This document shows positions 3,186-45,421 of a DNA stretch of 62,175 bases, one piece after another (position 1 is the stretch's first letter; each line of letters starts with the position of its first letter). A program made the position numbers and the translations under genes. Source of the stretch: Elusimicrobiota bacterium. Its GTDB lineage: Bacteria; Elusimicrobiota; Elusimicrobia; UBA1565; UBA9628. The stretch covers positions 1-62,175 of the forward strand of contig JACPFR010000042.1 of the NCBI GenBank assembly GCA_016182905.1, written 5' to 3'. The notes below the pieces were generated by a model. It was not told the DNA's origin. It did not search any database and saw nothing but the letters and a program-made list of their open reading frames with translations.

Positions 3186-3191
3186 TACAAT
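3186..3191 (+). promoter_or_regulatory. -10-like hexamer TACAAT, 6 bases before start
   Basis: TACAAT ends 6 bases before the ATG at 3198 and favours that start for a leaderless mRNA over the upstream ATG at 3180, which would overlap the hexamer. No convincing -35 element. Confidence 0.4.
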
Positions 3192-3197
3192 AGGAAC

Positions 3198-3341
3198 ATG
3201 GCACGACGAGCTTCGCGAAGTCTGGCCGCCCTTGCCCGCAGGATCCGCCGCCAGCCCTGGAACCGCGAGGGCGCGGACAAGACCTTCGTCTACACGGCGC
3301 TGACTTCGTACCTCGCCTACATCCGGGCCATCCGCCGTTGA
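3198..3341 (+). CDS. Small basic protein coupled to nucleotidyltransferase-like gene
   Basis: A 47-residue Arg-rich protein (53 residues if the ATG at 3180 is used) containing RRIRRQPWNREGADKTF and ending in AYIRAIRR. I do not recognise the family. Its stop TGA overlaps the TTG start of the next gene as TTGA, so the two are almost certainly translated together, the arrangement often seen in two-component modules such as toxin-antitoxin pairs. Charge and size would suit a small partner or regulator, but this is inference only. Confidence 0.55.
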   Translation: MARRASRSLAALARRIRRQPWNREGADKTFVYTALTSYLAYIRAIRR

Positions 3342-3847: not shown

Positions 3848-3874
3848 AGGGGCCGCTCCGGGCAGTTTTGTTGC

Positions 3875-3880
3875 TTAGTT
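3875..3880 (+). promoter_or_regulatory. Extended -10-like TGC-TTAGTT before start
   Basis: TGC directly precedes TTAGTT, and 6 bases separate it from the ATG at 3887. The layout matches TGC-TAAGAT before the gene at 7760. The hexamer is weaker than the others in the window. Confidence 0.3.
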
Positions 3881-3886
3881 GTCGGC

Positions 3887-4039
3887 ATGAAACAGTGTCC
3901 CGACTGCCGTTCGCCCATCCTCTCGATGTTGTTCCTCGACGGAAAGACCGTTCCGGAACACTACTGCGAGCGCTGCTGCAAGAGCGTCTCCCTCGTGGTG
4001 AAGCCCGTCCCGGCGCCCCGGGAAAAGGTCGCCGCCTAA
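3887..4039 (+). CDS. Small zinc-ribbon protein
   Basis: A 50-residue protein: CPDC at residues 4-7, a beta-hairpin-like middle (LDGKTVPEHY) and CERCC at residues 27-31, the spacing of a small zinc ribbon. A short Pro/Val tail follows. It ends 16 bases before the CoA-transferase alpha gene, whose N-terminus also carries Cys pairs, so the two may be functionally linked. The function cannot be told from sequence. Confidence 0.6.
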   Translation: MKQCPDCRSPILSMLFLDGKTVPEHYCERCCKSVSLVVKPVPAPREKVAA

Positions 4040-25229: not shown

Positions 25230-27761
25230 ATGAAGATTTCCCCGCGCCGCGCCCTGTCCATCCTCCTGACCGCCGCCCTCCTCCTGGGCGCCGTGCCCCC
25301 GGAGGCCTCGGCGCAGGTCGTCCGCGTCGTCTCGGGACCGACGGGCTCCATGCCGGTCTCGCCCGCGGTCGGCCCGGCCTCCGGGATGACGATGGCCCCC
25401 GCCCTCGGGATCGGCGCCGCCAGCCTCAACGGGACTCTCGCCGCTCCGTCCATCGCCCCCTCTCCCCTCGCGACCCCGACGGCCGTCTCCGCCGCCGCCC
25501 CCGTCGCCCCCGTCGCCGCCGCGCCGGTCGCCGCCGCCCCCGCTCTCGCCGTCTCCGTCCGCGCTGCCGCCTCCGAGGACGCCCCGAAGCTCCCCAACGC
25601 CCCCTCGGCCGCCGCCCCGGTCGAGAAGAAGACCTGGACCCAGCGCCTCTCCTCGCTCATCGGCCGCAAGACCGCTCCCGCCGCGACGCCCGCCGCCGAG
25701 ACGGTGAAGGTCGACGCGGACAAGCTGTTCGACGGCGCGGCCGAGACCGAAGCCTCCACCGAGGGCAAGCCCGTCTCCGCCGGCGACATCAAGCTCACGC
25801 ACGCGAACCTCAAGGCCGCCCTGTCGGCCAAGCTCACCGCCCACAAGACCCTCTCCGCCGCCAAGCGCGCCGCGACCGTCGACGAGTTCGGCGGCCCGCT
25901 CACCGAGCCGATGACCTTCCGCCGGCGCGTCGGCTACGGCCTCAAGCAGGGCCTCAACCTCGTCGGCCTCGGCGCCATCCTCGAGGTCACGCTCCGGCCC
26001 CTCCTCGACGTCTTCCCGTGGCCGCAGTACATGTCGGACGCGACCTTGAGCGGCTTCGGCCGCGTCGCCCTCCTCGCCAAGTACGGCCCCAACGAGATCG
26101 TCGAGGGCCTGGCCACCTCCCCGGCGACCTTCCTCGGCCTCCAGATCCCGATGGCGGTCGCTATGGAAGAGGTCGCCTACCGCCTCCTCGGCTTCGGCCT
26201 CATCTTCCTCGTCCTCGCCGCGGTCAAGCCGTTCACGCGTTGGATCTCCTCGATGATCGAGAGCCTCCCCGACGCGGCCGGCGTCGTCGGCGGCGCCAAG
26301 CGCGTGCTGAAGGCCGGAGAGTGGCTGTCCCACCTCGCCTTCCCCATCGCCGCGGTCCTGTCCTCCTTCAGCTTCGCCGCCGCCCACTTCGCGACCTGGG
26401 GCTTCAGCCCGTTCGTCCTCGCCCTCAACGTCATCCTCGGCCTGTTCCTGGCGCACACCGCCTACCGCAGCCGCAGCCTGACCTCGCCGGTCGTCGCCCA
26501 CCTGATCTTCAACCTCGTCACGATCGGCGGCGTCTTCCTCGCGCTGGCCTACTCCCCCTTCGCCGGCGCCGCGTTCGCCGTCATCGCCGGCCTGCTCGGC
26601 GCGTCCTCCCTCCTGCACGACTGGCTGACGCGCCGCAAGGAGCGCGCCTTCCGCATGAAGCACGGGGCCAAGGCCCTCGTCGCCGTCATGATGCTCGGCG
26701 GCCTCCTGTCCGTCTGGAACGACCCGACGCAGACCCGCCCCAACGAGGCCGTCTCCCGCGCCGCCATCGAGCAGGTGCAGAACAAGACCGAGGTCGCCCC
26801 CGCTCCCGCCGTCGCCGCGGCGCCGGCGGCCGACGCCGCCGCCGTCGAGTCCCGCGAGGCGATGGTCGCCCGCGTCAAAGGCTCCGTCGTGAACGTGATC
26901 GTGCGCACGCCCCGAGGCATGGGCACCGGCTCCGGCTTCATCCTGACCCCCGACGGCGTCTTCATCACCAACGCCCACGTCGTCGGCTCCCGCCGGCCCG
27001 GCCAGCTCGTCGAGGCGCGCATCCCCGGCGTGCAGGGCGTGATCAAGGCCAAGGTCCTCGCCGTCAACCACGACAAGGACCTCGCCATCGTCCAGCTCGC
27101 CCCCCGCGCCGACGGCAAGCCCTGGCCCGTCGTCAAGCTCGCCTCCTCCGCCCCCCGCGAGGGCGAGGACGTCACCGCCACCGGCTACCCGCGCGGCCTC
27201 CCCTTCACCGTGAGCGCCGGCGTCGTCAGCGGCATGGACGGCCGCGGCAACATGTACGTCAAGCACCTGCAGACCGACGCCGCCATCAACCCCGGCAACT
27301 CCGGCGGCCCCCTCTTCAACGCCCGCGGCGAGGTGGTCGGCGTCAACACGCAGATCTACACGCAGAGCGGCGGCTCCGACGGCCTCGGCTTCTCGATCAT
27401 GGCCCCCGAGGTGGCGCACGTGATGGCGCAGTACGCCAAGACGGGCAACATCGGCACCGCCTCGCTCGGCATCATCGCCAACCTCTCCGACCCGATGGCC
27501 CCCGACGCCGGCCTCGAGATCGAGTACATCCGCCACGGCTCCGCCGCCGAGAAGGCCGGCCTCAAGCGCGGGGACCTGATCATCGGCGTCGGCGAGGCGA
27601 CCATCTCCGAGGGCGGCCAGGAGGCCGCCGGCCACGTCGCGGCCGTCCTCTCCAAGATGATCCCCGGCCAGAAGACGACGATCACCGTCCTGCGCGGCGA
27701 CGAGCCCGTTCAGCTCGAGCTCACCGCCGACATGAAAGTCACCAAGGCTCCGAGCCACTAA
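25230..27761 (+). CDS. CPBP intramembrane protease fused to HtrA-type serine protease
   Basis: An 843-residue fusion. Residues 1-28 are a signal peptide, 29-160 an Ala/Pro/Val tract, and 161-170 is VDADKLFDGA, shared with the giant Bat protein. Residues about 230-500 form a CPBP (Abi) membrane protease: EEVAYR at 313-318, FAAAHF and HLIFN. Residues about 550-843 are HtrA-like: His583 (TNAHVV), Asp617 (HDKDLAIVQL), Ser691 (NPGNSGGPL), then a PDZ domain (SAAEKAGLKRGDLIIGV). Both catalytic sets look intact. It would couple cleavage inside the membrane with a periplasmic protease for envelope quality control or signalling; this is inference. Confidence 0.85.
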   Translation: MKISPRRALSILLTAALLLGAVPPEASAQVVRVVSGPTGSMPVSPAVGPASGMTMAPALGIGAASLNGTLAAPSIAPSPLATPTAVSAAAPVAPVAAAPVAAAPALAVSVRAAASEDAPKLPNAPSAAAPVEKKTWTQRLSSLIGRKTAPAATPAAETVKVDADKLFDGAAETEASTEGKPVSAGDIKLTHANLKAALSAKLTAHKTLSAAKRAATVDEFGGPLTEPMTFRRRVGYGLKQGLNLVGLGAILEVTLRPLLDVFPWPQYMSDATLSGFGRVALLAKYGPNEIVEGLATSPATFLGLQIPMAVAMEEVAYRLLGFGLIFLVLAAVKPFTRWISSMIESLPDAAGVVGGAKRVLKAGEWLSHLAFPIAAVLSSFSFAAAHFATWGFSPFVLALNVILGLFLAHTAYRSRSLTSPVVAHLIFNLVTIGGVFLALAYSPFAGAAFAVIAGLLGASSLLHDWLTRRKERAFRMKHGAKALVAVMMLGGLLSVWNDPTQTRPNEAVSRAAIEQVQNKTEVAPAPAVAAAPAADAAAVESREAMVARVKGSVVNVIVRTPRGMGTGSGFILTPDGVFITNAHVVGSRRPGQLVEARIPGVQGVIKAKVLAVNHDKDLAIVQLAPRADGKPWPVVKLASSAPREGEDVTATGYPRGLPFTVSAGVVSGMDGRGNMYVKHLQTDAAINPGNSGGPLFNARGEVVGVNTQIYTQSGGSDGLGFSIMAPEVAHVMAQYAKTGNIGTASLGIIANLSDPMAPDAGLEIEYIRHGSAAEKAGLKRGDLIIGVGEATISEGGQEAAGHVAAVLSKMIPGQKTTITVLRGDEPVQLELTADMKVTKAPSH

Positions 27762-30349: not shown

Positions 30350-31306
30350 TCAGAATTCCTTGTAGAAAAAAGGCGCGGTTGGCTTAACCGGACTAGATGT
30401 TATTCGCAGCGTTGAATAGCCGCGTTTGAGCGATATTTCAATGTGCACCTTGTCGACGTGTGCTTTCAATTTCTTGTGGCGAGTTAGGGCTCTCAAAACT
30501 CGCCGCCAATTGTGAACTCCAGAGACGACCTTTTTTCCAATGAAATGGAATCCCCTGCCGCTCTTCAGTAATACGCCGCCAAACGGTTTCAGGAGGGCTT
30601 CGACTGCCGGGTTGACGGCATCGATGTCGATCATTATCAGATGATCGTCGTCATACTGATTGACACGACTGTTTAACCCAACGACATAGTCTTCCGAGCG
30701 ATTTACCTTAAGCCGTTTCAGCATGCGGACAGCTTCACTGGCGAGCCTTTTGATTCCGAATATTTCAAGATAGAAAGGCGGCTGCCAATATGTCAGCCGC
30801 GAGTGGTGGGAATAGGTCTTCGGGCAGTAGATGTCGAATGAGAAATCCTTAATAAGGCCAGGATTGTCTGCCAGCAGACTTTTTAACAGATCGGCGGCTT
30901 CAACGACAGGAACGATCCGCTGGCAGAATTTCACATAAGACGTTAGCGTGCGGAGCTGCTTCTTGAGATCATCCGGATCAGGGGCATGGGTAGTGCGATA
31001 GTTGAATTCATTCCGCTGCACATGGAGTTCAGTGTGGAGCTTCACATAACGGCGCGGGAAATCATGCTTGCGCCCATACGTTTTATGAAGCTGTGTCTGC
31101 ACGTGTTCGTGGCTTGGGCTCGCTTTGATGAGAGAGCAAAGCAACGACTGTGAAATATAAAAACATGTGAAATACAGGTGCACGACTGCTTCTCGATAGA
31201 GGCCGGCCTCGATCAGCTTGTCTGCCGCGTCACGCTCGGAAGTTCCAAGAGCCATCAGGGTGCTGGCTCTCTTTTTTTGATGCGGAGTATATGTGAGTGG
31301 CTTCAT
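30350..31306 (-). CDS. HEPN domain fused to AEP-primase-like domain
   Basis: A 318-residue protein. Residues 10-150 look like a HEPN domain of the COG1895 type (GLYREAVVHLYFTCFYISQSLLCSLI, HEHVQTQLHKTYGRKHDFP, RNEFNYRTTH). The C-terminal third resembles an archaeo-eukaryotic primase core: LIMIDIDAVNP (D-x-D), KSGRGFHFIGKK (SGxGxH) and RGYSTLRITSSPVKP. No such fusion is known to me. The gene is AT-richer than its surroundings and follows another helical gene by 75 bases in the same direction, as defence pairs often do. Role in defence is inference. Confidence 0.5.
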   Translation of the reverse strand: MKPLTYTPHQKKRASTLMALGTSERDAADKLIEAGLYREAVVHLYFTCFYISQSLLCSLIKASPSHEHVQTQLHKTYGRKHDFPRRYVKLHTELHVQRNEFNYRTTHAPDPDDLKKQLRTLTSYVKFCQRIVPVVEAADLLKSLLADNPGLIKDFSFDIYCPKTYSHHSRLTYWQPPFYLEIFGIKRLASEAVRMLKRLKVNRSEDYVVGLNSRVNQYDDDHLIMIDIDAVNPAVEALLKPFGGVLLKSGRGFHFIGKKVVSGVHNWRRVLRALTRHKKLKAHVDKVHIEISLKRGYSTLRITSSPVKPTAPFFYKEF

Positions 31307-31380
31307 ATTCTTGCGGGATACTTAACGATACGCCATGCCACGCGCGCTACTGGAACTCCACAAAGAAAGCACGCTTCGCC

Positions 31381-32268
31381 CTACGGCACATCGAATAAGA
31401 TTCCCCAGTCAGCATCTGGATCAAATTCGCCGGCCTCTTCGTCTTTGGAACGCCAAGAACCAAAAAAGTCCTCCACGTGCCCTTCCGACATGATGTGCAT
31501 GATGTTAGTCGGCAACGGATGCTTCCGCCGCAAATAGTCCATCCGATAATGGTCTTCTTTGTCGTAAAACGTAAAGCCATCAATCTCCACATCGCAAATC
31601 TGGTCAATTACATCGGCCTTCAGAAAGAATTTCCCGCTTGCGTTTTTAAGAAACGAGGTTTCAATTAGCTCAGATTGCAGCTGAGCAATTTCCGCAAACA
31701 ACCTGCACATGTCGATCACATCAATATCTGCCTTTGGGAAGGAGTCGCCGCTCGATGGCGCTCGATACGAAATCAGCTCTCGATAAGCTTTTAAGTGCGT
31801 GATGTGCTGTTTGGTTTTACCCGCCAGTTTCCTGTTAAATTGAGCGAAGATGTCGCTGGCAATATTTATTGTCTTCGTATGCGTCGTCAATAATAATCCG
31901 CCGTTATCCCACGGGATGCTTGGATTGGTGAGCAGAATGGAGCGAAGTGAATTAAGAACCGTATAGTAGTCGAGATACGAGACCACAGCCCGCAAATTTT
32001 TTGTCTTTGCGAACTCGAGACTCTGGGCCATAACAGATGAAGCGAGCACCATTTTCGCCGCGAAATAGATTCGCGCAATCCATTCCGAGTTCTTGTCATC
32101 ATCCCAGCTTTTCGAAATCGGGGCAAACCTGCTTAATAGCTGCTGGCATGTTTTGGTGACAGTAGCTTCCATGCAGTGTTTCGGAATGGAACGGAACTCA
32201 TAGGACCAAGTTCTCCCAGCGAAATTGGTGCGGGTTTCGAGGAGTTTGCGAACCTTTATATGGGTCAT
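31381..32268 (-). CDS. HEPN-like helical protein of unknown function
   Basis: A 295-residue mostly helical protein. YFAAKMVLASSVMAQSLEFA, VSYLDYYTVLNSLRSILL and THLKAYRELISYRAP have the rhythm of HEPN-like domains; the C-terminus is acidic (SKDEEAGEFDPDADWGILF). No catalytic motif stands out. The ATG follows GTTTAAT, the right end of the attC-like hairpin, by 2 bases, as in integron cassettes. Probably works with the HEPN-primase-like gene downstream. AT-rich, acquired DNA. Confidence 0.5.
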   Translation of the reverse strand: MTHIKVRKLLETRTNFAGRTWSYEFRSIPKHCMEATVTKTCQQLLSRFAPISKSWDDDKNSEWIARIYFAAKMVLASSVMAQSLEFAKTKNLRAVVSYLDYYTVLNSLRSILLTNPSIPWDNGGLLLTTHTKTINIASDIFAQFNRKLAGKTKQHITHLKAYRELISYRAPSSGDSFPKADIDVIDMCRLFAEIAQLQSELIETSFLKNASGKFFLKADVIDQICDVEIDGFTFYDKEDHYRMDYLRRKHPLPTNIMHIMSEGHVEDFFGSWRSKDEEAGEFDPDADWGILFDVP

Positions 32269-32942: not shown

Positions 32943-34250
32943 CTAGCGCAACGGAAAGGACGATCCATCGGCCGCATGAACGGTCTCGACGATCCCGCTA
33001 GGCCCCGCTTCGACCGACAGCCAGTGATGCAGGCGCGTCTTGACCGGCCCGGGGTACAGCGGTGAGCCCCCGCCGCCGGTGAGCACGTACTTCACGCCCC
33101 CGCGCTCGAGGACCCCCAGACCGTGGATGTGTCCCATGTACACGCGCTGGACCTTGTTCGCGCTCATCAGGCGCATGAACTCGGCGCTGCCTTCCTTGAA
33201 TCCCCCCGCGCCCTTCATCGAGCCCCAGTCGGTCCACTCGGAGAGAGGCGCCGGCGGTATGTGCGTGAAGACGACCGTCGGGACTTCCGGATCCAAAAGC
33301 CCCACGAGCCACGCGAGCTGCACCGGCGTCACGCGCCCCGCGCTCGAGTCGAGGACGATGAACCGCCGCCCGCCCCGGTCGAAGGCGTAGTCCGGGCTGC
33401 CGAACGCCGCCCGATACACGCGGTCGTTGGTGATCCCGTGCGGCTTATGCCGGTCATGGTTTCCGATGGCCGTCAGATAAGGCGTCTTCGGCCCCACGGA
33501 GAACAGCCCGCGGACGAACGACCAGAAGTTGAGCACGGTCCCGCGGCTGACCATGTCCCCCAGTTGGAAGATGAAGTCCGCGCCCGAACGGTCGGCGCGC
33601 GCGAGGAGCTTCCAGAAGACCCCGGGCGTGTTGAACAAGGTCCGGGAGAACCAGAACCGCCCCGGCTCCGCGTCCCCGATCACGGCAAAGCGGAAGGTTT
33701 CCCCCACAGAACGCGGCGAAGCCGCGAGCTTCGTGAGCTGCTCATCCGTCCGCCATTCCCGGGCCTGATGGCGCAGCGACTCAAGCTCCCGGGTCAGACG
33801 CACCGGCGCGGGAGCCACGACCAGGTGTCCGCGCCCCACCGCGTCCTCGATGGTGGAGGCGCGCGGCGACCGACCGTCCCACGGTATGCCCTCGGGAGCG
33901 CCCAGCACGCGCAGATCGAGGCCCGCCGACGGAGAGAACGGAAGGCCGTTGTGATGGCTGAAGCCGGTCTGACGGCTGCCGTGGATGACGACGGGCTCCC
34001 CCGTGCGCACGGCGAGGGCCTTGGCCGCCTCGAGATGCGCGGGAGTGACGCCCGGACCCGGGACGCCGAGCACCCGCGTGCCGAGCAACGAAGGCGCCAG
34101 CGGGAAGTCGACGATCGCCGGGGCGGAGAGGACCGGCGAGGAGAGCGCCGCGACGCGCGGAGCCGAAGGCAACGCCCGCGGCACGACGACCTGAGCCGAC
34201 GCCGCGCCGGCGGCCAGGAGCAGGGCCGCCGGCGCGAACACGACGGTCAT
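32943..34250 (-). CDS. Secreted metallophosphoesterase with Ala/Pro-rich N-terminus
   Basis: A 435-residue protein. Residues 1-20 are a signal peptide, 21-60 an Ser/Ala/Pro/Val tract like those of the neighbouring genes. Residues 70-120 (GEPVVIHGSRQTG, then LDLRVLG) look like a degenerate nucleotidyltransferase-type segment. From about 185 it is a calcineurin-like phosphoesterase: FAVIGDAEPG, FQLGDMVSRG, AIGNHDRH, FTHIPP and MGHIHGLGV, all metal-binding blocks present. Substrate unknown. It starts 3 bases after the moxR-like stop, so it is third in the Bat/MoxR operon. Confidence 0.8.
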   Translation of the reverse strand: MTVVFAPAALLLAAGAASAQVVVPRALPSAPRVAALSSPVLSAPAIVDFPLAPSLLGTRVLGVPGPGVTPAHLEAAKALAVRTGEPVVIHGSRQTGFSHHNGLPFSPSAGLDLRVLGAPEGIPWDGRSPRASTIEDAVGRGHLVVAPAPVRLTRELESLRHQAREWRTDEQLTKLAASPRSVGETFRFAVIGDAEPGRFWFSRTLFNTPGVFWKLLARADRSGADFIFQLGDMVSRGTVLNFWSFVRGLFSVGPKTPYLTAIGNHDRHKPHGITNDRVYRAAFGSPDYAFDRGGRRFIVLDSSAGRVTPVQLAWLVGLLDPEVPTVVFTHIPPAPLSEWTDWGSMKGAGGFKEGSAEFMRLMSANKVQRVYMGHIHGLGVLERGGVKYVLTGGGGSPLYPGPVKTRLHHWLSVEAGPSGIVETVHAADGSSFPLR

Positions 34251-34253
34251 CGT

Positions 34254-35750
34254 CTAGAGCTTCTTGCTCGACGGAGCCAAGGTCGCCGCGGCCCGCACCG
34301 AGGGCTTGGGCACCTGGACCTTGCTGAGGATGCTGTCGACGACCTGGTCGGTGGTGAGGCTGTTCGCCGAGTAGCTCAGCGTCAGGCGGTGGCGAAGGAT
34401 GCGGGCCGCCACCTCGCGCACGTCGTTGGGCCCGACATACGCGCGGCCGTTGAGCAGCGCGTTGATCTTGGCCGCTTTCAGAAGGAAGATGGCCGCGCGC
34501 GGAGAGGCGCCGCCCTCGATGACGTCCTTGGCGTCGATGCCGTACTTCGACGGATTGTGCGTGGCCTCGACGAGGTTGACGATGTAGTCCTTGATGGACT
34601 CGTCGACGTAGACCTGCTCGGCGACCTTGCGGATCTCGACCATCTCGTCGAGCGAGGTGATCTTGCCCGCCTTGGGCTGGCCGTCTTTTTTAGAGAAGCG
34701 GTCCATGATCTCCTTGAGCTCGTTCATGGCCGGGCGCGGGACGAGGACCTTGTACATGAAGCGGTCCTGCTGGGCTTCCGGGAGACGGTACACGCCCTCC
34801 TGCTCGATGGGGTTCTGCGTGGCGAGCACCATGAAGGGCTTGGGGAGGTCGAGCGTGTTGCGGCCGATGGTGACGCGGCCCTCGGCCATCGCCTCGAGGA
34901 GCGCCGCCTGGGTCTTCGGCATCATGCGGTTGATCTCGTCGACAAGAAGAATATTCGTGAAGACGGGCCCCTTTTCCAGTTTGATTTCTTTGTTGCCGGT
35001 CGTGGGATTCTCTTGCAGGATCTCAGCTCCCAACAAGTCTGAAGGAAGCTTGTCCGGCGTTCCCTGCACCCGCTGGAAGCCGCCCTCGACCGCGTCGGAG
35101 AAGGCCTTGACCGTCTGCGTCTTCGCCACGCCGGGGACGCCTTCGAGGAGGACGTGCTCGGAGGCGATCATCGCGGTGATGATGGAGTCGATCATCTCCT
35201 CCTGGCCGACGATGACCTTGGCGATCTCGGCGCGGATCTTCTTGATGACCTCGGCTTTCTCCATGGCCCGAGCGGACAGCTCCGGCGTGACGCCCTGAGC
35301 GTAGCCGAGCGGAACGGCGTCGATGGACGGGGCGGCGAGCGCGGACTTCTCGCCGGTGAGCGCCTGCTCGAGCGCGGTGCCCGCGCCGCGCGTCTGCGCC
35401 CCGGTGGCCTTATCGAGGTTCGGCATCGCGGCCAGGGCGGCGGTCGCGTCCTTCATGCGCTCGGCGGCGGAAGGAACGGCGGCCTGCGGAGCCAGGGCGG
35501 CGGGGACTGCCGTCGGGACCAAAGCCGCGGACGGAGCCGCGAGCGCGGGCATCAGCGAGAGGGCCGACGGGCTCAGGAGAGGGCCCGAGAGCGGGGCGCC
35601 GAGGCCGGCGCCGAGCGTCGGCACGATCCCGGCGGAGACGCCGGGGACGGCCACGCGGCCGGTCACCGTCTGCGCGGAGGCCGAGAGAGGAGCGAGTCCG
35701 ATGAGGGCCGCGGCTCCGATTTTGGCGAACTGCGAGGGCACTTTCTTCAT
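34254..35750 (-). CDS. MoxR-family AAA+ ATPase with signal peptide
   Basis: A 498-residue protein. From about residue 165 it is a standard MoxR ATPase: KVIVGQEEMIDSIITAMI, Walker A GVPGVAKT (about 204-211), Walker B LLVDEINRMMP, sensor ATQNPIEQEG and PEAQQDRFMY. MoxR proteins act with VWA proteins as chaperone-like partners in the cytosol. Here residues 1-26 (IGAAALIGLAPLSASAQ) look like a Sec signal and 27-160 are Ala/Pro/Leu-rich, so where it works is puzzling. It begins 8 bases after the stop of the giant Bat protein. Confidence 0.85.
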   Translation of the reverse strand: MKKVPSQFAKIGAAALIGLAPLSASAQTVTGRVAVPGVSAGIVPTLGAGLGAPLSGPLLSPSALSLMPALAAPSAALVPTAVPAALAPQAAVPSAAERMKDATAALAAMPNLDKATGAQTRGAGTALEQALTGEKSALAAPSIDAVPLGYAQGVTPELSARAMEKAEVIKKIRAEIAKVIVGQEEMIDSIITAMIASEHVLLEGVPGVAKTQTVKAFSDAVEGGFQRVQGTPDKLPSDLLGAEILQENPTTGNKEIKLEKGPVFTNILLVDEINRMMPKTQAALLEAMAEGRVTIGRNTLDLPKPFMVLATQNPIEQEGVYRLPEAQQDRFMYKVLVPRPAMNELKEIMDRFSKKDGQPKAGKITSLDEMVEIRKVAEQVYVDESIKDYIVNLVEATHNPSKYGIDAKDVIEGGASPRAAIFLLKAAKINALLNGRAYVGPNDVREVAARILRHRLTLSYSANSLTTDQVVDSILSKVQVPKPSVRAAATLAPSSKKL

Positions 35751-35758
35751 AACGCTCC

Positions 35759-38700
35759 TTAGGGCTGGGACGGCTGCTTGGCTTTGGGATGGAAGGCCAG
35801 CTCGAGGCTCTCGAGCGGGTCTCCCTCGGTGGAGATCATGACGGGCGTGAGGCGCGAGGCGGCGAAGGCGGCCTCGACGGCGGCCTCGCGGCGATTGACG
35901 GCGGCGGCGGCCTCGGCGCGTCCGGCGCGCGAGGAGGTGTCGAGCATGCGGGTCGCCCCCGTCTCGGCGTCGACGACGGGCAGCAGGCCCACGTCGGGCA
36001 GGGGGCCCAGCTCGGCCGGGTCGGTCACGCGGATGGCGCGCACGTCGTGGCGCGAGGCGATGGCGCCGAGCGCGTCCTTGAAGTCGGGGGCTATGAAGTC
36101 GGAGAGGACGGCGACCATGGCGCGCGAGCCGAGCAGCTTGCCCGCGGCCTCGAGACCCGGCTTCAGGTCGGTGGCCTTGCCCGTCGGCTCGCCCTTGAGG
36201 ATGGCGTCGACGATGGTCATCGCGTGGCGGGAGCCGCCGCGCGCGGGGATGACCTGTTCGACGCGGTCGGAGACGAGGACGAGGCCGACGCGGACGTTGG
36301 AGTGGGCGGCGGCCAAGGCGAGGACCGCGGCGGCGTCCTCGATGGCGGCGCGCTTGTCGGTCCCGCGCGTGCCGAAGCGGCCGGAGCGGCTGACGTCGAC
36401 GACGAGCATGAGCGGCATGTCGCGCTCGAGCTCGAACTTCTTCGCGTAGAGCTCGTCTTTCTTGGCGGAGGTCTTCCAGTCGATCTCGCGCATGTCCTCG
36501 CCCTGGTAGGGACGGGCCTCGGCGAAGTCCGTGCCGCCGGCGCCGATGAAGCGGGAGCGGAAGTTCCCGCCGTTGACGGCGGTGGCCATGCGGCGGGCGA
36601 CGAGCTCGATGCGGCGGTGGCGCGCGATCACGGCGCCGGGGACGGACTCGCGCGCGGCGGCTTCGCTCTCCTCGGCCTTCATGGCGGGCAGCATCTTCCA
36701 GACCAGGTACGCGGCGGCGAGGCCGATGACGGTGAAGATGAGGATCGGGGCGAGGCCCAAGGCGGGGAGCGCGGCCAGCGCCAGCGGCGCGAAGGCGTAG
36801 GTCTTGCCGGACTTCGCGTCGAAGGCGGCCAAGGCGCGGTCGGCGGCGGCCAGCGCCGCCTCCACCGTCTTCTTCTCCTCGTCGGTGAGCGCGCGGCGCG
36901 TCGTGCCGTCGCTCTCCCAGCCCTGGCCGCTCGCCAGTATGCCGGAGAGGAAGCCGCGCAGCTTCACGATCTCGGCGCGGGTGTAGACCTGGCGGTGATC
37001 GGAAGGGCCGTTGCCGGAGCCGGCGTCCATCAGGCCGAGGGCGCGGAGCTGCTCGTTGAACACGGCGCCGGGGAAGACCTGATAGCCCTTCTGGAGGGGG
37101 TCGTTGACGAGCTCGGCGGAGACCTCGCCGGGGGTGTCGCCGGAGAGGACGCCGGACGCCGTCGCGGCGGCCTCGAGCAGGGGCAGGAGGCGGGCGGCGC
37201 GCTCGGAAGCGGCGCGCTGCTCGGCCGTCGGCTTCTTGACCTTCGCGGCGGCCGCGGCGATGCCGGCGCGCAGCTCGCGGTAGTGGCGCAGCTTGAACTC
37301 GCCGCGCCAGGAGTCGTCGTCCTCGCGGACGCCGGAGGCGATCAGCGCCTTGTTGAGCGTCGCGAACCGCTTCTCGGCGTCCTCGCCCAAGGACTGCGCG
37401 GTCTTCTCCGCGTCCTCGGCGACGGACTCGAGGAGCTCCTTGGCGCGGGGCGTCTTGAGCGCCGAGACCAAGGCGGACAGCTCGGCCTCCTCGGAGGAGG
37501 TGCCCTTGACCGCGAGCCGGATGGAGCCGAGGACGCCCGCGGCGTCGGCGGCGTCGCCGGGGCGCGCGGCGAGGAGCGCGAACATCGTCTCCTGGGCCTT
37601 GAGCGCGAAGGCGGCGTCGCCCTTATGCTTCTCGAGCTCGATCGAGAGGCGCGCCAGCGCCAGGGCTTCCTGGCCCGGGCGGCTCACGGCGCCGAGCAGG
37701 TCCGCCGCGACGGGAGCGGCGGCGACGCCGAAGCGGGCGGCCAGGATCGCGTCGACGCGGTCGAGCGCGTTGGCGAGGTAGACCTTCTCGGCGAGCTTGA
37801 GCTCGCGGGCTTCCTTGCCGAGGCCGGCGTTGGCCTTCGCCGCGCCGGCGAGCCAGGTCCGGACCGCCTCGAGCTCGGCGCGGGTGTAGGTCTGGCGGTA
37901 GTCGGAGAGCGTGTTGCCGGCGCCCGGCATCAGGCCGGCGGCGCGCAGGGCCTCGTTGAACTCGGAGCCGGGGAACAGGCGCCAGCCGGCGAGCAGGACC
38001 ACGTTGGCCTCGTCGGCGGCGAGCTCCCCCGCGGTGTCGCCCGCCGGGGCGCCCGCCAGGGCCGCGAGCTTCGCGTAGCGGGCCAAGGTCATCGCGTCCT
38101 CGCCGGTCAGGGCCTCACCGACGGCCCGGAAGTGGCGCAGCTTGACGTCGGGGCGCCAGGCGCTCTCGCTCTCGCGCACGCCGGCGGCGGCGAGCTTGGC
38201 CTTGAGGCCCGGGGTCGCGGCCTCGGCCTTCTCGGCGACCGCGTGCAGGCCGTCGACGGCGAGCTTGAGCGCGGCGGCCTGGAAGGCCGCGCCGTTGGGG
38301 GCCTTGAGCGCGACGGCGAGCGCGTCGAGGGCGGCGGCTTCCTGCGGCGTTCCCTTGAGGGCGGCGAAGACCTGGACCAGCAGGGCGGACGCGTCGGCGG
38401 CGTCGACCGGGCCCTGGGCGGCGCGGGCGAACAGGCGCGCCGACACCGAGACGGCGGTCGCGGGACTCGCGCCGGCCGTCAGCTCGCGCGACAGGCGCGC
38501 CAAGGCGAGCGACTCGTCGGCGATCGGCGAACCGGGCTGCGCGTCGGGATATATCCTGCGCTGCGCCGCGTCGAGGTCCTCGAGCGCGCCGGCCAGGTAG
38601 AGCTTCTCGGACCAGGTCAGGGCCCGAGCCTTGCCCTCGGAGTCCCAGCCGCTGCCGGAGCGGGCGATCGTCAGCAGCAGCTCGCGCAGCTTGGTCAGCT

Positions 38701-41700
38701 GGGCCGCGTCGAGCGCCTCGGGGTAGGCCAGCTGGCTCGACAGGTCGCCGGAGGCGGGGGCCAGGCCCGCCTCGCGCAGGGCGCGCAGGAAGGAATGCCC
38801 GGTGAACACGCCGTCGCCCTGCTTCAGGAGGGGGTAGAGCTGCTCGGCCGCGGCCTCGGGGGCGGTGCCGCCCTCCATCATGCCGGCCTTGACGCCGGCC
38901 TCGAGGCCCTGCTCGACGACCATGCCGGCGCGCTCGAGGAGCTCGCGCGCGGCGAAGTTCTCCTTCGTCGGGGCCTTCGCCGCGGGAGCGCCCAGCTCCT
39001 CGACGGCGGCCAGCAGGGCGCGCAGGTGGGCGAGCTTGTACACCTCGCGGTAGTTCTGGGTCGTGCTCGTGCCGCCGCCGTAGTAGCCGCCGAAGCGCCC
39101 GCCGTGGCCGTGGTAGTCGTCGTAGCCGTCGTAGCCGCCGCCGTAGGAGCTCTGGGTGTCGGGGAGCACGACGCCGTCCTTGACGAGGCGCTCGTGCAGG
39201 CCGGGGAAGACCTTCTCGGCGTCCTTGATAAGGTCGGTCGTCGCCTTCGCGACCAGGTAGCGGGCGGCGCCGGCGAGCGCCGCGGGCGCGCCGCCGTCGC
39301 CCTGCAAAGTCGAGGCGAGGTTGGCGAGCATCGCGACCATGGACGGCGGGGCCTGGACCTCCTGGTCCGGGGGCGTCTGCTTGTAGATCTCCAGGCGCGC
39401 CGCGTCGATCGCGCGCGCGTTGACGAGCGCCTTGTCGAGGAAGGACTTGGCCTTGACCAGGTCGGCCTCGCCCACGCCCGGCTCGGTCAGGCGGCGGAAG
39501 GCGAAGCTCGCCGTCCACATCTGGAGCGCCGGGTCGCCGGCGTGCTTGGCCTGCGCCGCCTCGAGGCCCTCGTAGAACTTGGCGCCCGCGTTGCGCGAGA
39601 GCTGGGCGTACAGCGCCCCCGCGGCCTGCTGCTGGACCTGCTTGTTCGGGCTCTTGAGCACGCGGAAGAGCTGGACGAAGGTCCGCTCGTTGCCGACCTC
39701 GACGCCGAGGACGACGAGCTTGACGAGCATCTGGGCCGAGGCGGCGTCGGCGCGCGACTGCGCGATCAGGGCGTCCATCGAGGCCCACAACAGGTCGCTC
39801 TCGCGCTCGATGAGGGCGCGCAGCATCGTGTTCTCGGCCTGCTGGTTGAGCGGGAGGACGCCGGAATGGCGGAAGATCGCGACCAGGATGTTGTCGGCCT
39901 TCGGGTCCGGCGACTCGCGCAGGATGGTCAGCGCGCGCTCGAAGTCGTCGCCGGCGGTCTTCGGCGACTCGTGCCAGCGCTTGAGGGCGGGGATGACCTC
40001 CTCGGTGATGCGCGCGTCGACGTAGCGGTCGGAGAAGACGAACAGGTCCTCGGCGTAGAATAGCCGCATCGCGGCCTCGGCCGCCGCCCGCTGCTCGACG
40101 CGGAAGTTCATCGTCCCGACCGTGGAGACGCCGGTGATCACGATCATCAGGCTGAGCACCGCGACCGTGGCACCGCGCTTGAGGCGCGACCAGAGGCCGG
40201 GAGCCTTCGCGAGAGGCTTCGGGGCCTCGAAGGCGACCGGTTGTCCCGCGGCGACGGCGTTGAGGGCCGAGAGGCGGGCCTCGGCGTCGGAGTGGGCCAT
40301 CCAGGAGATCTGCGCCTTGCGCAGGCCCATGCGCGCGGCGATCGGGGCCAACGGCTCCAGGCGCAGACGCGCGGTGCGGCGCAAGGCGGTCAGGACTTTT
40401 TCGAGGGTTTCCGCCGACGCGCCGGAAAGATAAACGGCGGTGAGCTTCTCGCGCCACAAGGCCTCGTCGTGGGAGGCGAGTGCAATCATCGTCTCGCGCA
40501 GGGGCTCCTTGGCGTCCTGCCAGCCCCTGACGAAGGCGGTCAGGCGGCGCTCGTCGGCCTCGCGCAGGTCGTACAGGTGGATCAGGTCGGCGGAGACGCC
40601 TTTCTCGACGAAGCCGCGGCGGCTCTGCCACCACTCGCGCACGCTCCGGGTGATCTTGCCGCCGCTCCAGGAGTCGGCGGCGAGGTAGGCGGCGACGACC
40701 GTCGCCAGCGCGGCGAAGGGCAGTATCTGGGGCCAGGCCCCGAGAGGGATGAGCGCCGCGCCGAGCAGGCCCGCCGCGCCGGGGCCTTTCTTCTTATCCT
40801 TCGCCTGGCCGCGCTTGAGGAGGGAACGGCCGGGCAGCACGAGGTCGAGGATGAGCATCAGCAGCGCGGGCCAGAGCAGGTACACGCCGACGGGGCTCGG
40901 GGACTTGATCAGGTCGCCCTTCTGGCCCTTCTCGAGGCGGGAGACCTCGCTTAAGATGTTGTCGATCGAGGCCTTGCCGCCGGCGGCGAAGTAGGCGCCG
41001 CCGGTGCGCTCGGCGAGCTGGCGCAGCGGGGCTTCGTTGAGACGCGTGATCGCGGGCTGGCCGGTCTTGGCGTCGATCAGGTACTCGGTGCCGGTCCCAT
41101 CGGCCGTCGGCATCAGGATCTTCGTGCCCGCGGGGTCGCCGACGCCGATCGCGTAGACGGTGACGCCGTGCTCGGAGGCGGCGGCGATCGCGGCCGAGAT
41201 CTCGCCGGCGGTCACGTCGCCGTCGGAGATCACGATCATGATGCGCTGGCGGTCGCCGAGCTTCTTGGCCGTCTCGAAATGCTCGGCGGCGTACTTGATC
41301 CCGGAGGCGAGGTCGGAGCCCTCGCCGATGCCGCGGGCCTCGACGTCGAGCCGGTTGATCTTGAACTCGAAGTTGCCGTAGTCGATGGAGATCGGAGACG
41401 CCGTGCGCGACTTGCCGGCGAAGACGACGAGGCCGACCCGGTCCGTGCCCTGCAGGCGGGTGATGAACTCGTTGAGCTCCTTCTGCGTCTTCTCCGCGCG
41501 GCCGTCCTCGGCGTACATCATGCTGTGGGAGCCGTCGACGGTGACGACGATGTCCTTGCCGCCGAAGTTGACGCGCTCGTCGACCATGCCGCCTCTAGGG
41601 TCGCCGGCGGCCAGGCCGATCAGGCCCGCGGCCGCCAGAGCGAGCGCCGACTTGCCGAGGAAGCGGCGCGCCCCCCACCAGGAGGAGAAGGTCTTGGGCG

Positions 41701-44700
41701 CGGCGCCGGGGCTCAAGCGCTTGGCCGCGTCCAGGCGCTTCTTGATCCCCCAGGCGACGAGCAGGATCAGGACGGGCAGGCCGATGCCGACGACCCACAG
41801 GAACAGGGACGAGGAGAACACCAGGCCCTGGCCGGCGAAGGCGAGCGGCAAAGCGCCGATGCCCCACACGCCGGAGCCCTTGCGGGTCATGCCCTTGCGC
41901 GCGGCGTCCTTCTCGCCCTTCTCCTGGTCGCCGAGCGCCTCGCCGAGCTTGTCGGCGCCTTCCTTGGGATCGCCGGGCTTGGCCTGGGGTTTTCCATCGC
42001 CCGGCTTGCCGTCTCCCGGTTTCCCGTCCCCGGGCTTGCCGTCGCCCGGTTTGCCGTCGCCCGGTTTGCCGTCGCCGGGTTTGCCGTCGCCCGGCTTGCC
42101 GTCGCCGGGTTTTCCCTTCTGCTTGCCCGGCTTGCCCTTCTTGGAGTCCTTGGAATCCTTCTGCTGTTCCTGCTGCTCCTTCTGCTGCTGCTTGAGGGCC
42201 TCCAGGTTCCACTTCGCGTCCATGTTGGTCGCGTCGCGGCGCAGGGCTTCCTTGTATAGCTCGATCGCCTTCTCGCCGTCCTTGGCCATCAAAGCCGAGT
42301 TCGCGAGGTTGAAGAGGGTCTGGGACTGCTTCTTCGCGTCCGGCGTCAGGGAGAGGTACTTGGCCCAGGCCGCGTCGGCCTTCGCGTTCTCGCCGAGGCG
42401 CAGGTAGGCGTCGGCCATGTTGAAGTAGATCTCGGGAACGTCGGGGTGGCGCTCGACGGCCTCGCCGTACTTCTTGAGGGCCTCGGCGAAGCGGCCCTGG
42501 TTGTAGAGCCGGTTGCCCTCGATGACCTCGGCCGGGACCGCGGCGGTGACCGACTCGTGAGCCTCGGAGTGCGCCTGCGCCATGGTCATGGTGACGGCGG
42601 AGGGCGCCGTCCGGACCGCGTTCAGCGCGTCCATCGGCGCCTGATTGAGGGCCATCATGAACGCCAGGCCGTAGAGCGTGCGCAGCCGCGTGTTGGCGAG
42701 GGTCAGCTCGGCGCCGATGAGCAGGAAGGCGAGGAGTGCCAGCAGGCTCGTGTAGTCCTTGATCGAGACGGCGGAGACGATCTTGGCCGGGCTCTTCTCG
42801 AGGCGGGCGATCTCGAGCAGGACCTCACGCATCGCGTTCGCGTCGCCGGCGCGGTAGAACTTGGCGCCCGTCTTCTCCGCCACGCCGCGCAAGGTCGCCT
42901 CGTTGAAGGACTCGTTGGGCCCGGCGATGCCCACGCCGTAGACCTTGACGCCCAGGGAGGCGGCGATCTGCGCGGCGGCCTGCGGGTCGATGCCGGAGTT
43001 GGAGTCGCCGTCGGTGAAGAGCACGACGATCTTGGCGCGCTCCGGCTGCAGGATGGTCTTGAGCAGATCGGGGTGCTGCTTGGCGTAGGCGAGCGCGGCC
43101 GGCAGGCCCTGGTCGCGGAGCAGGCGCTGGACCTCGGCGGCGCGCGGGTCCTTCTTGCCGTCGAGCTCGAGCGCGTTGAGCTCGAGGAAGTGCGCGATCG
43201 CCGTCAGCATCGACTTGCCGATCGCCGTCGAGCCCGTCGTCTGCAGTTCCTTGAGATGCGAGATCAGCGCGTCGTAGTCGGTGGTCAGCTTGACGTCGAG
43301 GTAGGCCTCGTCGGAGAAGGTGACCATGCCGACGCGGTTCTCGGTGCCGCGGCGCTGCTCCTCGACGTAGCCCTTCACCGCGTCGCGCACGCCCTGGAGC
43401 TTGTCGCCGCTCATCGAGCCGGACAGGTCGATGGACACCATCGTGTCGGTCGACGGGACGAAGGTCTCGGTGCGCTCGGTGCCGATCATGGGCCGCGCGA
43501 GCGCGATGAGGATCAGGCCCACGGCGGCGTAGCGCAGCACGCGCGGCAGCCCGGCGAGGCGCTCGCGCAAGGTGCGCTTGGACGGCGTCTGGGCGGAGGA
43601 GGAGACGGCGAAGCGCGCGCCCTGGGCGCGGCTGCGCCACGACCACACGAGGTAGCCGAGGTACGGGATCAGCAGGAGCAGGACCCAGGGAGAGCCGAAG
43701 GTCAGGCCGGCCGCGCCGGGAAGCAAGGCCAGCATGCCGAGCATGCCGGCGCCCGGCGCCTTGGGCTTGCCCGCCTTGCCCGCGACGCTCGCGACGAGGG
43801 CCTGCAGGCGCTCGATCATGCGCCCGCGCTCGGCGGCGTCCGTCTCCGAGCCGGCGAAGCGCGCGGCCTCGGCTTGGGCCGCCAAGCGGGCGGCGACGCT
43901 CGCCTGACCCGCGTCGTAGAAGGACTTGCGCAGGTCGCGCTCGAGCGTGCGCGCGTCGCGCGCCGCCTTGGGCAGGCCGGCGAAGTCGACCATGAACCGC
44001 GTCAGGAGGTCCTGGTAGCGGGCATAGAAGGAAGCGGCGTCGAGGTCGGCGGACTCGGCTTTCAGGCGCGCCAGCTCGGTCTCGGTGACGGTGACGAGCG
44101 ACAGGCGCTGGGCGTCGAGCTTCGGGTACAAGCGGCGCGCCGCGACGAGGCGGTGCACGCCGACGAAGAGCAGGAGGCCGAGCGGGATCGCCGCCAGCCA
44201 CATCCAGTCCGGGCCGTTGGCGCGCTTGACGCCGACGATGTCGCGCAGGCCCTTCTGCTTCCAGTCCGGCGTGAGCACGGTCGCGACCTTGATCTCGGTC
44301 TTGGGCAGGACGATCTCGATGCCCTCGGGGTAGACGGCCGTCTCGCCGACGGCCACGACGGCGATGCCGCCCTCCAAAGTCAGCGTTCCGGACCCGAAAG
44401 GGATCGCCTCGTAGACGACGGTCTTGGTCTCGCCCGGCGCCAAGGTCAGCGGCGCCTCGGCGCCCTTGCCCTGGAGCTCGAGGTCCGCGGGCACCGCCTC
44501 CTGCAAAGACGAGCGCAGGTTGTGCAAGGTGACCGGCTTGTCCGAGGTATTGCGGAGCGTGATCGTCAGGTGGATGCGCTCGCCGACGGTCACGCCCTGG
44601 CGGTCGACGGACGCCTGAGCCTCGAGCGGGCGGGGCAGGACGACGCGGGCCGTGTCGGCGGCGGGCGCCGGGGCCGGAGCGGGGGCGGCTTGAGCCGGGG

Positions 44701-45421
44701 CCGCCTGGGCCTGAGCGGCGAGAGCCTGGAGCTTCTGCTTGGCGGCCTGCCGGGCGGTCGAATCGGCCAACCCTTGGGCGATCCGGCCGTGGGGCGCGGG
44801 CTGCGGAAGCGGGGCGGTCTGGGCGGCGGCCTGATGCTGGGCGCCGAGCAGGCCGATCGAGAGCGCGAGGATGGCGAGGCCTTTCTTGACCGCGCGGCCG
44901 AAACCGCCTCGAGGAGCCGGGACGGAGCCGCCGGCGACGGCCTTGGCGGACGCGCCGTCGAACAGGCGCGCGGCGTCGACGACCTTTTCGGGAACGGCGG
45001 CGGCGGACAGATCGCGGACGAGCGCCGAAGGCGCGAAAACGGCGGGCGGGCCGGTCTTGGCGGCGTTCGTCAGCGGCGCCTGGGCCGGGACGACGCGGAC
45101 CGGCCCCATGGGCACGGCCGCGGACGCGGCGGCCGCGCGGGCCGGGATCGCCAGGGCCGCCGCGGCGCGGACCTCGGGCGCGGCCGCGGGAGAGGAGAGC
45201 GCGGGAGAGACGGAGAGCGCCGAGGCCGACAGAGAGGGGACCGGAGAGGAGAGGTCCGACAAGCCGAGGACGGGGACCGCGCGCGCGGAGGAGGCCGTCC
45301 CGGCGGCGCGTCCCGCGGCGGTCTGCGCCGCGGCCTGGTAGGCCGACGAGCCCGGCGCGCCCGCCACGATGGCGAGCGACAACAGCGCTCCGAGCAAGCG
45401 GCGCAGAGGGAAGCGCCTCAT
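35759..45421 (-). CDS. Giant BatD-BatA-BatC-BatB-DUF58 fusion protein
   Basis: A 3,220-residue single frame joining what are usually separate bat operon products. Order: signal peptide and Ala/Pro tract with VDAARLFDGA (148-157); BatD-like beta domain plus helix (about 265-430); BatA-like VWA with DLSGSMSG (Asp665) between two helices; TPR BatC-like unit (about 960-1075) with repeated GKPGD (1100-1141); BatB-like VWA with VDGSHSMM (Asp1296); an unrecognised helical region with three related repeats (about 1600-2870); then a helix and a DUF58 domain (YQGEDMREIDWK near 2974, VVDVSRSGRFG near 3005). Followed by moxR. Envelope complex; function inferred from the Bat family. Confidence 0.85.
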   Translation of the reverse strand: MRRFPLRRLLGALLSLAIVAGAPGSSAYQAAAQTAAGRAAGTASSARAVPVLGLSDLSSPVPSLSASALSVSPALSSPAAAPEVRAAAALAIPARAAAASAAVPMGPVRVVPAQAPLTNAAKTGPPAVFAPSALVRDLSAAAVPEKVVDAARLFDGASAKAVAGGSVPAPRGGFGRAVKKGLAILALSIGLLGAQHQAAAQTAPLPQPAPHGRIAQGLADSTARQAAKQKLQALAAQAQAAPAQAAPAPAPAPAADTARVVLPRPLEAQASVDRQGVTVGERIHLTITLRNTSDKPVTLHNLRSSLQEAVPADLELQGKGAEAPLTLAPGETKTVVYEAIPFGSGTLTLEGGIAVVAVGETAVYPEGIEIVLPKTEIKVATVLTPDWKQKGLRDIVGVKRANGPDWMWLAAIPLGLLLFVGVHRLVAARRLYPKLDAQRLSLVTVTETELARLKAESADLDAASFYARYQDLLTRFMVDFAGLPKAARDARTLERDLRKSFYDAGQASVAARLAAQAEAARFAGSETDAAERGRMIERLQALVASVAGKAGKPKAPGAGMLGMLALLPGAAGLTFGSPWVLLLLIPYLGYLVWSWRSRAQGARFAVSSSAQTPSKRTLRERLAGLPRVLRYAAVGLILIALARPMIGTERTETFVPSTDTMVSIDLSGSMSGDKLQGVRDAVKGYVEEQRRGTENRVGMVTFSDEAYLDVKLTTDYDALISHLKELQTTGSTAIGKSMLTAIAHFLELNALELDGKKDPRAAEVQRLLRDQGLPAALAYAKQHPDLLKTILQPERAKIVVLFTDGDSNSGIDPQAAAQIAASLGVKVYGVGIAGPNESFNEATLRGVAEKTGAKFYRAGDANAMREVLLEIARLEKSPAKIVSAVSIKDYTSLLALLAFLLIGAELTLANTRLRTLYGLAFMMALNQAPMDALNAVRTAPSAVTMTMAQAHSEAHESVTAAVPAEVIEGNRLYNQGRFAEALKKYGEAVERHPDVPEIYFNMADAYLRLGENAKADAAWAKYLSLTPDAKKQSQTLFNLANSALMAKDGEKAIELYKEALRRDATNMDAKWNLEALKQQQKEQQEQQKDSKDSKKGKPGKQKGKPGDGKPGDGKPGDGKPGDGKPGDGKPGDGKPGDGKPGDGKPQAKPGDPKEGADKLGEALGDQEKGEKDAARKGMTRKGSGVWGIGALPLAFAGQGLVFSSSLFLWVVGIGLPVLILLVAWGIKKRLDAAKRLSPGAAPKTFSSWWGARRFLGKSALALAAAGLIGLAAGDPRGGMVDERVNFGGKDIVVTVDGSHSMMYAEDGRAEKTQKELNEFITRLQGTDRVGLVVFAGKSRTASPISIDYGNFEFKINRLDVEARGIGEGSDLASGIKYAAEHFETAKKLGDRQRIMIVISDGDVTAGEISAAIAAASEHGVTVYAIGVGDPAGTKILMPTADGTGTEYLIDAKTGQPAITRLNEAPLRQLAERTGGAYFAAGGKASIDNILSEVSRLEKGQKGDLIKSPSPVGVYLLWPALLMLILDLVLPGRSLLKRGQAKDKKKGPGAAGLLGAALIPLGAWPQILPFAALATVVAAYLAADSWSGGKITRSVREWWQSRRGFVEKGVSADLIHLYDLREADERRLTAFVRGWQDAKEPLRETMIALASHDEALWREKLTAVYLSGASAETLEKVLTALRRTARLRLEPLAPIAARMGLRKAQISWMAHSDAEARLSALNAVAAGQPVAFEAPKPLAKAPGLWSRLKRGATVAVLSLMIVITGVSTVGTMNFRVEQRAAAEAAMRLFYAEDLFVFSDRYVDARITEEVIPALKRWHESPKTAGDDFERALTILRESPDPKADNILVAIFRHSGVLPLNQQAENTMLRALIERESDLLWASMDALIAQSRADAASAQMLVKLVVLGVEVGNERTFVQLFRVLKSPNKQVQQQAAGALYAQLSRNAGAKFYEGLEAAQAKHAGDPALQMWTASFAFRRLTEPGVGEADLVKAKSFLDKALVNARAIDAARLEIYKQTPPDQEVQAPPSMVAMLANLASTLQGDGGAPAALAGAARYLVAKATTDLIKDAEKVFPGLHERLVKDGVVLPDTQSSYGGGYDGYDDYHGHGGRFGGYYGGGTSTTQNYREVYKLAHLRALLAAVEELGAPAAKAPTKENFAARELLERAGMVVEQGLEAGVKAGMMEGGTAPEAAAEQLYPLLKQGDGVFTGHSFLRALREAGLAPASGDLSSQLAYPEALDAAQLTKLRELLLTIARSGSGWDSEGKARALTWSEKLYLAGALEDLDAAQRRIYPDAQPGSPIADESLALARLSRELTAGASPATAVSVSARLFARAAQGPVDAADASALLVQVFAALKGTPQEAAALDALAVALKAPNGAAFQAAALKLAVDGLHAVAEKAEAATPGLKAKLAAAGVRESESAWRPDVKLRHFRAVGEALTGEDAMTLARYAKLAALAGAPAGDTAGELAADEANVVLLAGWRLFPGSEFNEALRAAGLMPGAGNTLSDYRQTYTRAELEAVRTWLAGAAKANAGLGKEARELKLAEKVYLANALDRVDAILAARFGVAAAPVAADLLGAVSRPGQEALALARLSIELEKHKGDAAFALKAQETMFALLAARPGDAADAAGVLGSIRLAVKGTSSEEAELSALVSALKTPRAKELLESVAEDAEKTAQSLGEDAEKRFATLNKALIASGVREDDDSWRGEFKLRHYRELRAGIAAAAAKVKKPTAEQRAASERAARLLPLLEAAATASGVLSGDTPGEVSAELVNDPLQKGYQVFPGAVFNEQLRALGLMDAGSGNGPSDHRQVYTRAEIVKLRGFLSGILASGQGWESDGTTRRALTDEEKKTVEAALAAADRALAAFDAKSGKTYAFAPLALAALPALGLAPILIFTVIGLAAAYLVWKMLPAMKAEESEAAARESVPGAVIARHRRIELVARRMATAVNGGNFRSRFIGAGGTDFAEARPYQGEDMREIDWKTSAKKDELYAKKFELERDMPLMLVVDVSRSGRFGTRGTDKRAAIEDAAAVLALAAAHSNVRVGLVLVSDRVEQVIPARGGSRHAMTIVDAILKGEPTGKATDLKPGLEAAGKLLGSRAMVAVLSDFIAPDFKDALGAIASRHDVRAIRVTDPAELGPLPDVGLLPVVDAETGATRMLDTSSRAGRAEAAAAVNRREAAVEAAFAASRLTPVMISTEGDPLESLELAFHPKAKQPSQP

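Follow-up and report, generated by a model that had tools for sequence, protein, structure and literature searches.

A single open reading frame on the minus strand (45421–35759) of the 62,175-nucleotide stretch analysed here (the window, which is contig C42 of a 63-contig, 3.98-Mb genome of an uncultured Elusimicrobiota bacterium) encodes, from an ATG start, 3,220 amino acids plus a stop codon, in which a reduced BatD-like module, a BatA VWA domain, a BatC-like TPR, a BatB VWA domain, a helical insert of about 1,340 residues and a DUF58 domain follow one another. The gene for a MoxR AAA+ ATPase begins 8 nt past the stop. On balance, we lean towards regarding the product as a single-chain, inner-membrane form of the Bat/MoxR-VWA chaperone machinery, which the genome possesses as an accessory second copy in addition to its ordinary bat operon.

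The original prediction of one uninterrupted 3,220-residue frame was borne out. GC3 amounts to 0.87–0.99 in each 115-codon block of the ORF, thus no stretch resembles non-coding read-through, and the fusion is complete as one frame in 13 genomes that span three families within a single Elusimicrobiota order (2,753–3,414 aa, 29–83% identical). Relative to G007, dN/dS is 0.13–0.67, i.e. below one, for all modules and junctions (the dN/dS values of the fusion are rough, given the GC content). An assembly or sequencing join had been named as the circumstance that would invalidate the prediction; as 13 assemblies from three families carry the same single frame, with dN/dS below one throughout, such a join is contradicted. 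The assemblies are metagenomic, and frame breaks interrupt the gene in G011, a MAG with a complete chromosome. However, the adjacent genes in G011 are broken as well, which suggests indel errors in that assembly. Considering also the 13 independent complete frames, the uniform GC3 and the purifying selection across junctions, the probability that a sequencing error joined separate genes is negligible. No conserved internal Shine-Dalgarno start was found within the fused frame, a further point against such an artefact, and on this basis the production of separate proteins via internal translation starts was discarded. A simple promoter/terminator scan gave a result no better than chance. Alternatively, the chain could be a precursor polyprotein, made whole and then cut (e.g. 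by signal peptidase) into separate BatD, BatA, BatC, BatB and DUF58 proteins. BatA, the TPR (LYGLAFMMALNQAP), BatB and the insert are each preceded by a short hydrophobic stretch bordered by Lys/Arg and small residues, the D/A and A/C junctions evolve faster than the domains (dN/dS 0.22–0.67), and separate BatC genes carry a cleavable-looking signal peptide. Still, these stretches are weakly hydrophobic and inconstant in length and presence, the linker between BatC and BatB is strongly conserved (dN/dS 0.08–0.21), and there is no obvious reason for a cut chain to remain fused over three families. Cleavage is considered unlikely.

In the window copy, Pfam recognises VWA in three stretches, TPR at residues 969–1066 and DUF58 at residues 2968–3179 (E 5e-60), and NCBIfam provides partial BatA, BatC and BatB matches. 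Together with profile searches and a tree, this supports the proposed succession of BatA, BatC-like, BatB and DUF58 modules in one chain, followed by MoxR. Judged by sequence and hydropathy, the first part of the protein (residues 1–250, 44672–45421) is a signal-peptide-like start followed by an Ala/Pro/Ser/Val-rich extension. The subsequent BatD-like module (residues 262–545) comprises one Ig/DUF11-type domain (262–405, 44207–44638), a transmembrane helix assigned from hydropathy and charge (408–426, 44144–44200) and a tail domain (432–545, 43787–44128). Pfam BatD (PF13584) stays below the cut-off in the window copy (E 0.035) and matches six of the 13 relatives with a best value of 4e-5; the tail profile matches the tail of a gene that, in ordinary Elusimicrobiota operons, stands separately between DUF58 and BatA (E 6e-4 to 5e-9). 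The BatD-like character initially proposed is suggested by the matches in relatives and by the tail; the module is reduced to an Ig-like domain, a helix and a tail, and its Pfam score is weak.

A BatA-type VWA domain with MIDAS is flanked by predicted transmembrane helices: an N-terminal pair (residues 575–650, 43472–43699), VWA1 itself (655–885, 42767–43459) and a C-terminal helix supported by hydropathy and charge (891–909, 42695–42751). Pfam PF07584 (BatA N-terminal) matches neither the fusion nor the ordinary BatA of the same genome; a distant relative matches. The BatC-like TPR (966–1078, 42188–42526) is found by Pfam and NCBIfam, BatC_Lepto reaching E 1e-19, yet below its curated cut-off. 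It is followed by the conserved Lys/Gly/Pro-rich linker (1081–1185, 41867–42181), inside which a 15-nt tandem repeat is located (41988–42112). The BatB part repeats the arrangement of BatA, with an N-terminal transmembrane pair assigned from charge and hydropathy (1200–1275, 41597–41824), VWA2 (1286–1500, 40922–41566) and a C-terminal transmembrane helix, again by hydropathy and charge (1511–1530, 40832–40891). NCBIfam BatB_Lepto gives 62 bits on VWA2 against a curated cut-off of 350. The assignment of both VWA domains rests on Pfam, NCBIfam and a tree of 57 VWA domains, in which VWA1 groups with BatA and VWA2 falls on the BatB side (split support 99/96). The motifs DLSGSMSG (residues 665–672) and VDGSHSMM (residues 1295–1302) are both present as originally quoted. 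Across 13 sequences, none of the three MIDAS sites shows any change in its DxSxS residues (D665/S667/S669 in VWA1, D1296/S1298/S1300 in VWA2 and D3009/S3011/S3013 in DUF58).

The DUF58 domain (residues 2931–3210, 35792–36631) is preceded by a transmembrane helix predicted from hydropathy, charge and an AlphaFold2 model (2887–2910, 36692–36763). The model of DUF58 best matches the MIDAS domain of Rea1/MDN1 (Z 15.4), followed by the VWA domain of NorD, solved in complex with the MoxR-type NorQ (Z 15.3), and BatB 3ibs (Z 11.9). In the DUF58 tree, the fused lineage forms one deep clade with the copies of G056 and G039, both cut by contig ends (99/97).

Between BatB and DUF58 an unrecognised repeat region of about 1,250 residues had been predicted. 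A large insert is present, but it covers about 1,340 residues (~1540–2880), includes transmembrane helices, and consists of tandem repeats only in its last ~760 residues. No Pfam family was found over the insert in the window copy. AlphaFold2 models of the insert (mean pLDDT 77 and 80) display a transmembrane helix, a helical domain, a second transmembrane helix, a solenoid and helical repeats. The first helix opens the insert (residues 1560–1585, 40667–40744; model and charge) and leads into an all-helical domain, probably cytosolic judging from model and charge (1590–1740, 40202–40654), which is followed by the second helix (1747–1771, 40109–40183; hydropathy, model and charge). The segment at residues 1775–2110 (39092–40099) is modelled as a HEAT/ARM-like helical solenoid, with solenoid matches of Z up to 9.2, a value within the usual range among helical repeats. 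The Arm profile detects this segment in one of 13 members (E 4e-4), comparison of the insert sequence with solved structures gave weak helical-repeat matches only, and a Foldseek search with residues 1535–2330 returned nothing under E 0.001. The repeat cores R1 (2118–2298, 38528–39070), R2 (2408–2573, 37703–38200) and R3 (2691–2873, 36803–37351) are mutually related (z 14–33) and recur with a unit of ~290 residues; other genomes hold two or three copies. They represent the least conserved folded part of the protein, with 46–81% identity to the three closest relatives versus 89–95% for DUF58. Relative to G003, dN/dS is 0.84 for R2 and 1.08 for R3, and 32–39% of the nonsynonymous sites in R2/R3 (36803–38200) differ, as compared to 1–6% in most flanking modules. 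This divergence would fit repeat turnover or diversifying change.

The membrane topology was predicted from hydropathy and flanking-charge averages over 13 sequences. The bias of positive charges puts the BatD domain, VWA1, VWA2 and the solenoid with its repeats outside, and the BatD tail, the helical domain at 1590–1740 and DUF58 inside; the side of the TPR is uncertain, as is the parity of membrane crossings, owing to weakly hydrophobic segments ahead of BatA, BatB and the insert. The predicted periplasmic position of the VWA domains would agree with the BatA-type protein BB0173 of Borrelia, for which the VWA domain was shown to be periplasmic by experiment (PMC5700661). Conversely, the proposal that the fusion brings the VWA domains into direct contact with DUF58 is not supported, because the predicted topology sets them on opposite membrane faces; between VWA2 and DUF58 lie ~1,430 residues and at least four predicted transmembrane helices.

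The MoxR protein next to the fusion (34254–35750, minus strand, 498 aa; AAA_3 E 5e-55) has intact Walker A and B motifs and begins with a signal-peptide-like sequence, MKKVPSQFAKIGAAALIGLAPLSASAQ, and an extension of ~140 residues. A Sec-type signal-peptide-like leader was detected by a simple script in 17 of 18 fusion-linked MoxR proteins and by eye in the 18th (L041), compared to none of 34 other MoxR genes of the phylum (leader-bearing loci beyond the window: L038–L045, L047–L052, L054, L100 and L109). The extension carries a conserved motif, MPxxxKA...GAGxxLExAxTGE, which is absent from all other MoxR genes tested. A signal-peptide-like start combined with an Ala/Pro/Ser/Val-rich extension occurs in only eight ORFs of a 337-ORF sample of this genome, so that the leader is selective rather than general; outside the Bat/MoxR pair, the Pfam matches among the eight fall on membrane proteins, on an MscS-type channel and on an Rce1/trypsin/PDZ protein. 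Taken at face value, the leader predicts the periplasmic side for MoxR whereas the charge bias predicts a cytosolic DUF58, and the two predictions conflict as sites of interacting partners. Alternatively, the whole module could be periplasmic, with MoxR exported, DUF58 outside too, and the AAA+ ring either acting beyond the cytosol or converted into a structural ring. In addition to the leader itself, a Shine-Dalgarno sequence at the leader ATG in 15 of 15 MoxR genes, with an internal alternative within the extension in one of 15, is in line with this reading, as is the lack of any further transmembrane-like segment ahead of the AAA domain in the window MoxR. However, L047 and L049 carry extra hydrophobic segments at that position, and the transmembrane helix just ahead of DUF58 argues for a return of DUF58 to the cytosol. 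Moreover, MoxR retains intact Walker motifs and a highly conserved AAA core (dN/dS 0.04–0.22, four relatives), although to our knowledge no ATP is known in the periplasm. A fully periplasmic module is accordingly rated as improbable, and so is a MoxR/VWA motor whose ATPase crosses the inner membrane by its signal peptide and works, or is tethered, periplasmically with the single-chain Bat scaffold.

With DUF58 in the cytosol, we favour an ATP-driven remodelling machine, in which DUF58 would serve as MoxR-side adaptor and the BatA/BatB VWA domains, solenoid and repeats as client-side arm. This is inferred from the DUF58 matches to the Rea1/MDN1 MIDAS and NorD VWA domains (Z ~15) and from the analogy to NorQ/NorD, where ATP hydrolysis in the MoxR ring works on a membrane enzyme by way of a VWA MIDAS adaptor (PMC9976466). 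The MoxR ring would use ATP to act on the MIDAS domain of DUF58, in the manner of NorQ and the VWA domain of NorD, and the movement could be transmitted via transmembrane helices to the periplasmic part. There, the solenoid with its fast-evolving repeats may select a client protein, which the paired BatA and BatB VWA domains could grip by metal-ion contacts while the TPR would scaffold the whole. As the client, a protein complex of the envelope or of respiration that requires assembly or repair is probable. The signal-peptide-like leader of MoxR is not explained by this single-chain model. VWA domains are commonly found in adhesion, and the repeats, fast-evolving and two to three in number, could be the ligand-binding part of a surface machine for adhesion or binding, built from reused VWA/MIDAS domains and not Bat-like in function; an accessory distribution would suit such a role. 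Yet BatA and BatB are the nearest VWA relatives, and MoxR and DUF58 are retained beside the fusion wherever the contig permits, as in MoxR chaperone loci. An adhesive function is considered improbable.

The same fusion was sought in related genomes as had been recommended, starting from the C-terminal 1,666 residues, and the search yielded the 13 complete in-frame copies described above. A profile search with the solenoid identified 18 of 341 Elusimicrobiota genomes (one order, three families) and a distant partial copy in G056, and pieces at contig ends add G004, G030, G039 and G044 as carriers. A HEAT-profile match in G185 (E 6e-4) was treated as chance. In the named collection, the relatives of the fusion are Elusimicrobiota metagenome-assembled genomes, and one scan with two peptide patterns from the insert did not find the fusion outside Elusimicrobiota. 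As several genomes of the same genus, 91–100% complete, lack the fusion, it is accessory and dispensable. The genome studied here harbours an ordinary bat operon on contig C7 (L037:5969–11363), with MoxR, DUF58, BatD-like, BatA and BatB-TPR, and most carriers retain such an operon too. BatB and TPR (BatC) already form one gene in the C7 operon and are fused likewise in several carriers. Since an ordinary, mostly unfused operon is kept in the same genome, the fusion is considered a second, accessory machine. An origin by recent fusion from the ordinary operon of this genome was rejected, given that the fused DUF58 and its MoxR are deep separate lineages and the gene order differs. A third MoxR-DUF58 pair on contig C57 (L056:6455–8303) belongs to a separate deep lineage and adjoins ORFs of 938 and 734 aa. 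The notion that the whole Bat pathway is fused goes too far: BatD-like, BatA, BatC-like, BatB and DUF58 are joined, but MoxR is encoded apart, a BatE-like part was not found, and the ordinary operon is retained.

In the Bat (Bacteroides aerotolerance) operon, moxR, DUF58 and batA–E are usually separate genes. The fusion shares with it the BatA- and BatB-type VWA domains, TPR, a reduced BatD-like part, DUF58 and an adjacent MoxR, but unites the subunits in one polypeptide, adds the insert of ~1,340 residues and is accompanied by a MoxR with a signal-peptide-like leader. The order is D-A-C-B-insert-DUF58 and then MoxR, as opposed to MoxR-DUF58-D-A-B-C in ordinary Elusimicrobiota operons. That bat genes are separate in known loci, as had been stated, describes the usual case, but partial fusions are published: batB-batC in Leptospira biflexa (PMC3557215), and others in Borrelia burgdorferi, Spirochaeta thermophila and Francisella (PMC3557215, PMC5700661), including BB0170 of Borrelia with BatD, TPR and SH3 (PMC5700661). 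These likewise join neighbouring bat genes, in two or three parts, whereas here BatD-like, BatA, BatC-like, BatB and DUF58 are combined with new domains; the limited set of papers searched reports only partial fusions. With regard to function, bat mutants of Leptospira have no oxidative-stress defect, and a role of the Leptospira Bat proteins in aerotolerance was not supported (PMC3557215).

NorQ/NorD likewise pairs a MoxR ATPase with an adjoining MIDAS protein. However, the adaptor NorD has a single VWA domain, while the fusion places three MIDAS domains in one membrane protein. A NorQ/NorD-type pair would be expected to share one compartment; for the present pair, the leader and the charge bias predict different sides. 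Midasin (Rea1/MDN1) resembles the fusion in layout, as a giant protein whose MIDAS domain sits at the distal tip of a long helical arm. Rea1 carries its own six AAA modules; the ATPase of the present system is a separate gene.

As a natural single chain, the protein states which Bat subunits belong together, in which order and ratio, and could serve as a construct for structural studies of this system, whose parts are elsewhere scattered across many genes. The fusion would fix subunit ratio and membrane order, and illustrates that a cytosolic MIDAS domain can possibly be linked covalently to periplasmic ones. The leader, present on the partner MoxR of every fusion and on no other MoxR tested, turns the site of AAA+ action into a testable question; if true, the periplasmic reading would imply a periplasm-facing AAA+ machine.

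Next downstream of MoxR lies a metallophosphoesterase with a signal-peptide-like start (32943–34250, minus strand), which adjoins MoxR in some relatives too. A leader with an Ala/Pro/Ser/Val-rich extension is also observed on this metallophosphoesterase and on an MscS-type channel, and a similar extension on an MFS-like protein, its 5' end not seen, and on one protein without assigned identity (loci with such an extension: L124:5224–6936, L037:2–2080, L135 (~2900–3991) and window 32943–34250). Judged by sequence, the combination is a putative lineage-specific N-terminal module. On the plus strand, 25230–27758 encodes an 843-aa protein comprising a signal-peptide-like start, an Ala/Pro/Ser-rich extension, an Rce1-like CAAX protease, a trypsin-like protease and PDZ. 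As homologues lie near the Bat fusion in L039, L042, L044, L049 and L055, it is regarded as another fusion of the same neighbourhood. The AT-richer stretch at 30350–32268 (minus strand, GC about 0.51), with a HEPN/primase-like ORF of 318 aa and an uncharacterised ORF of 295 aa, looks acquired.
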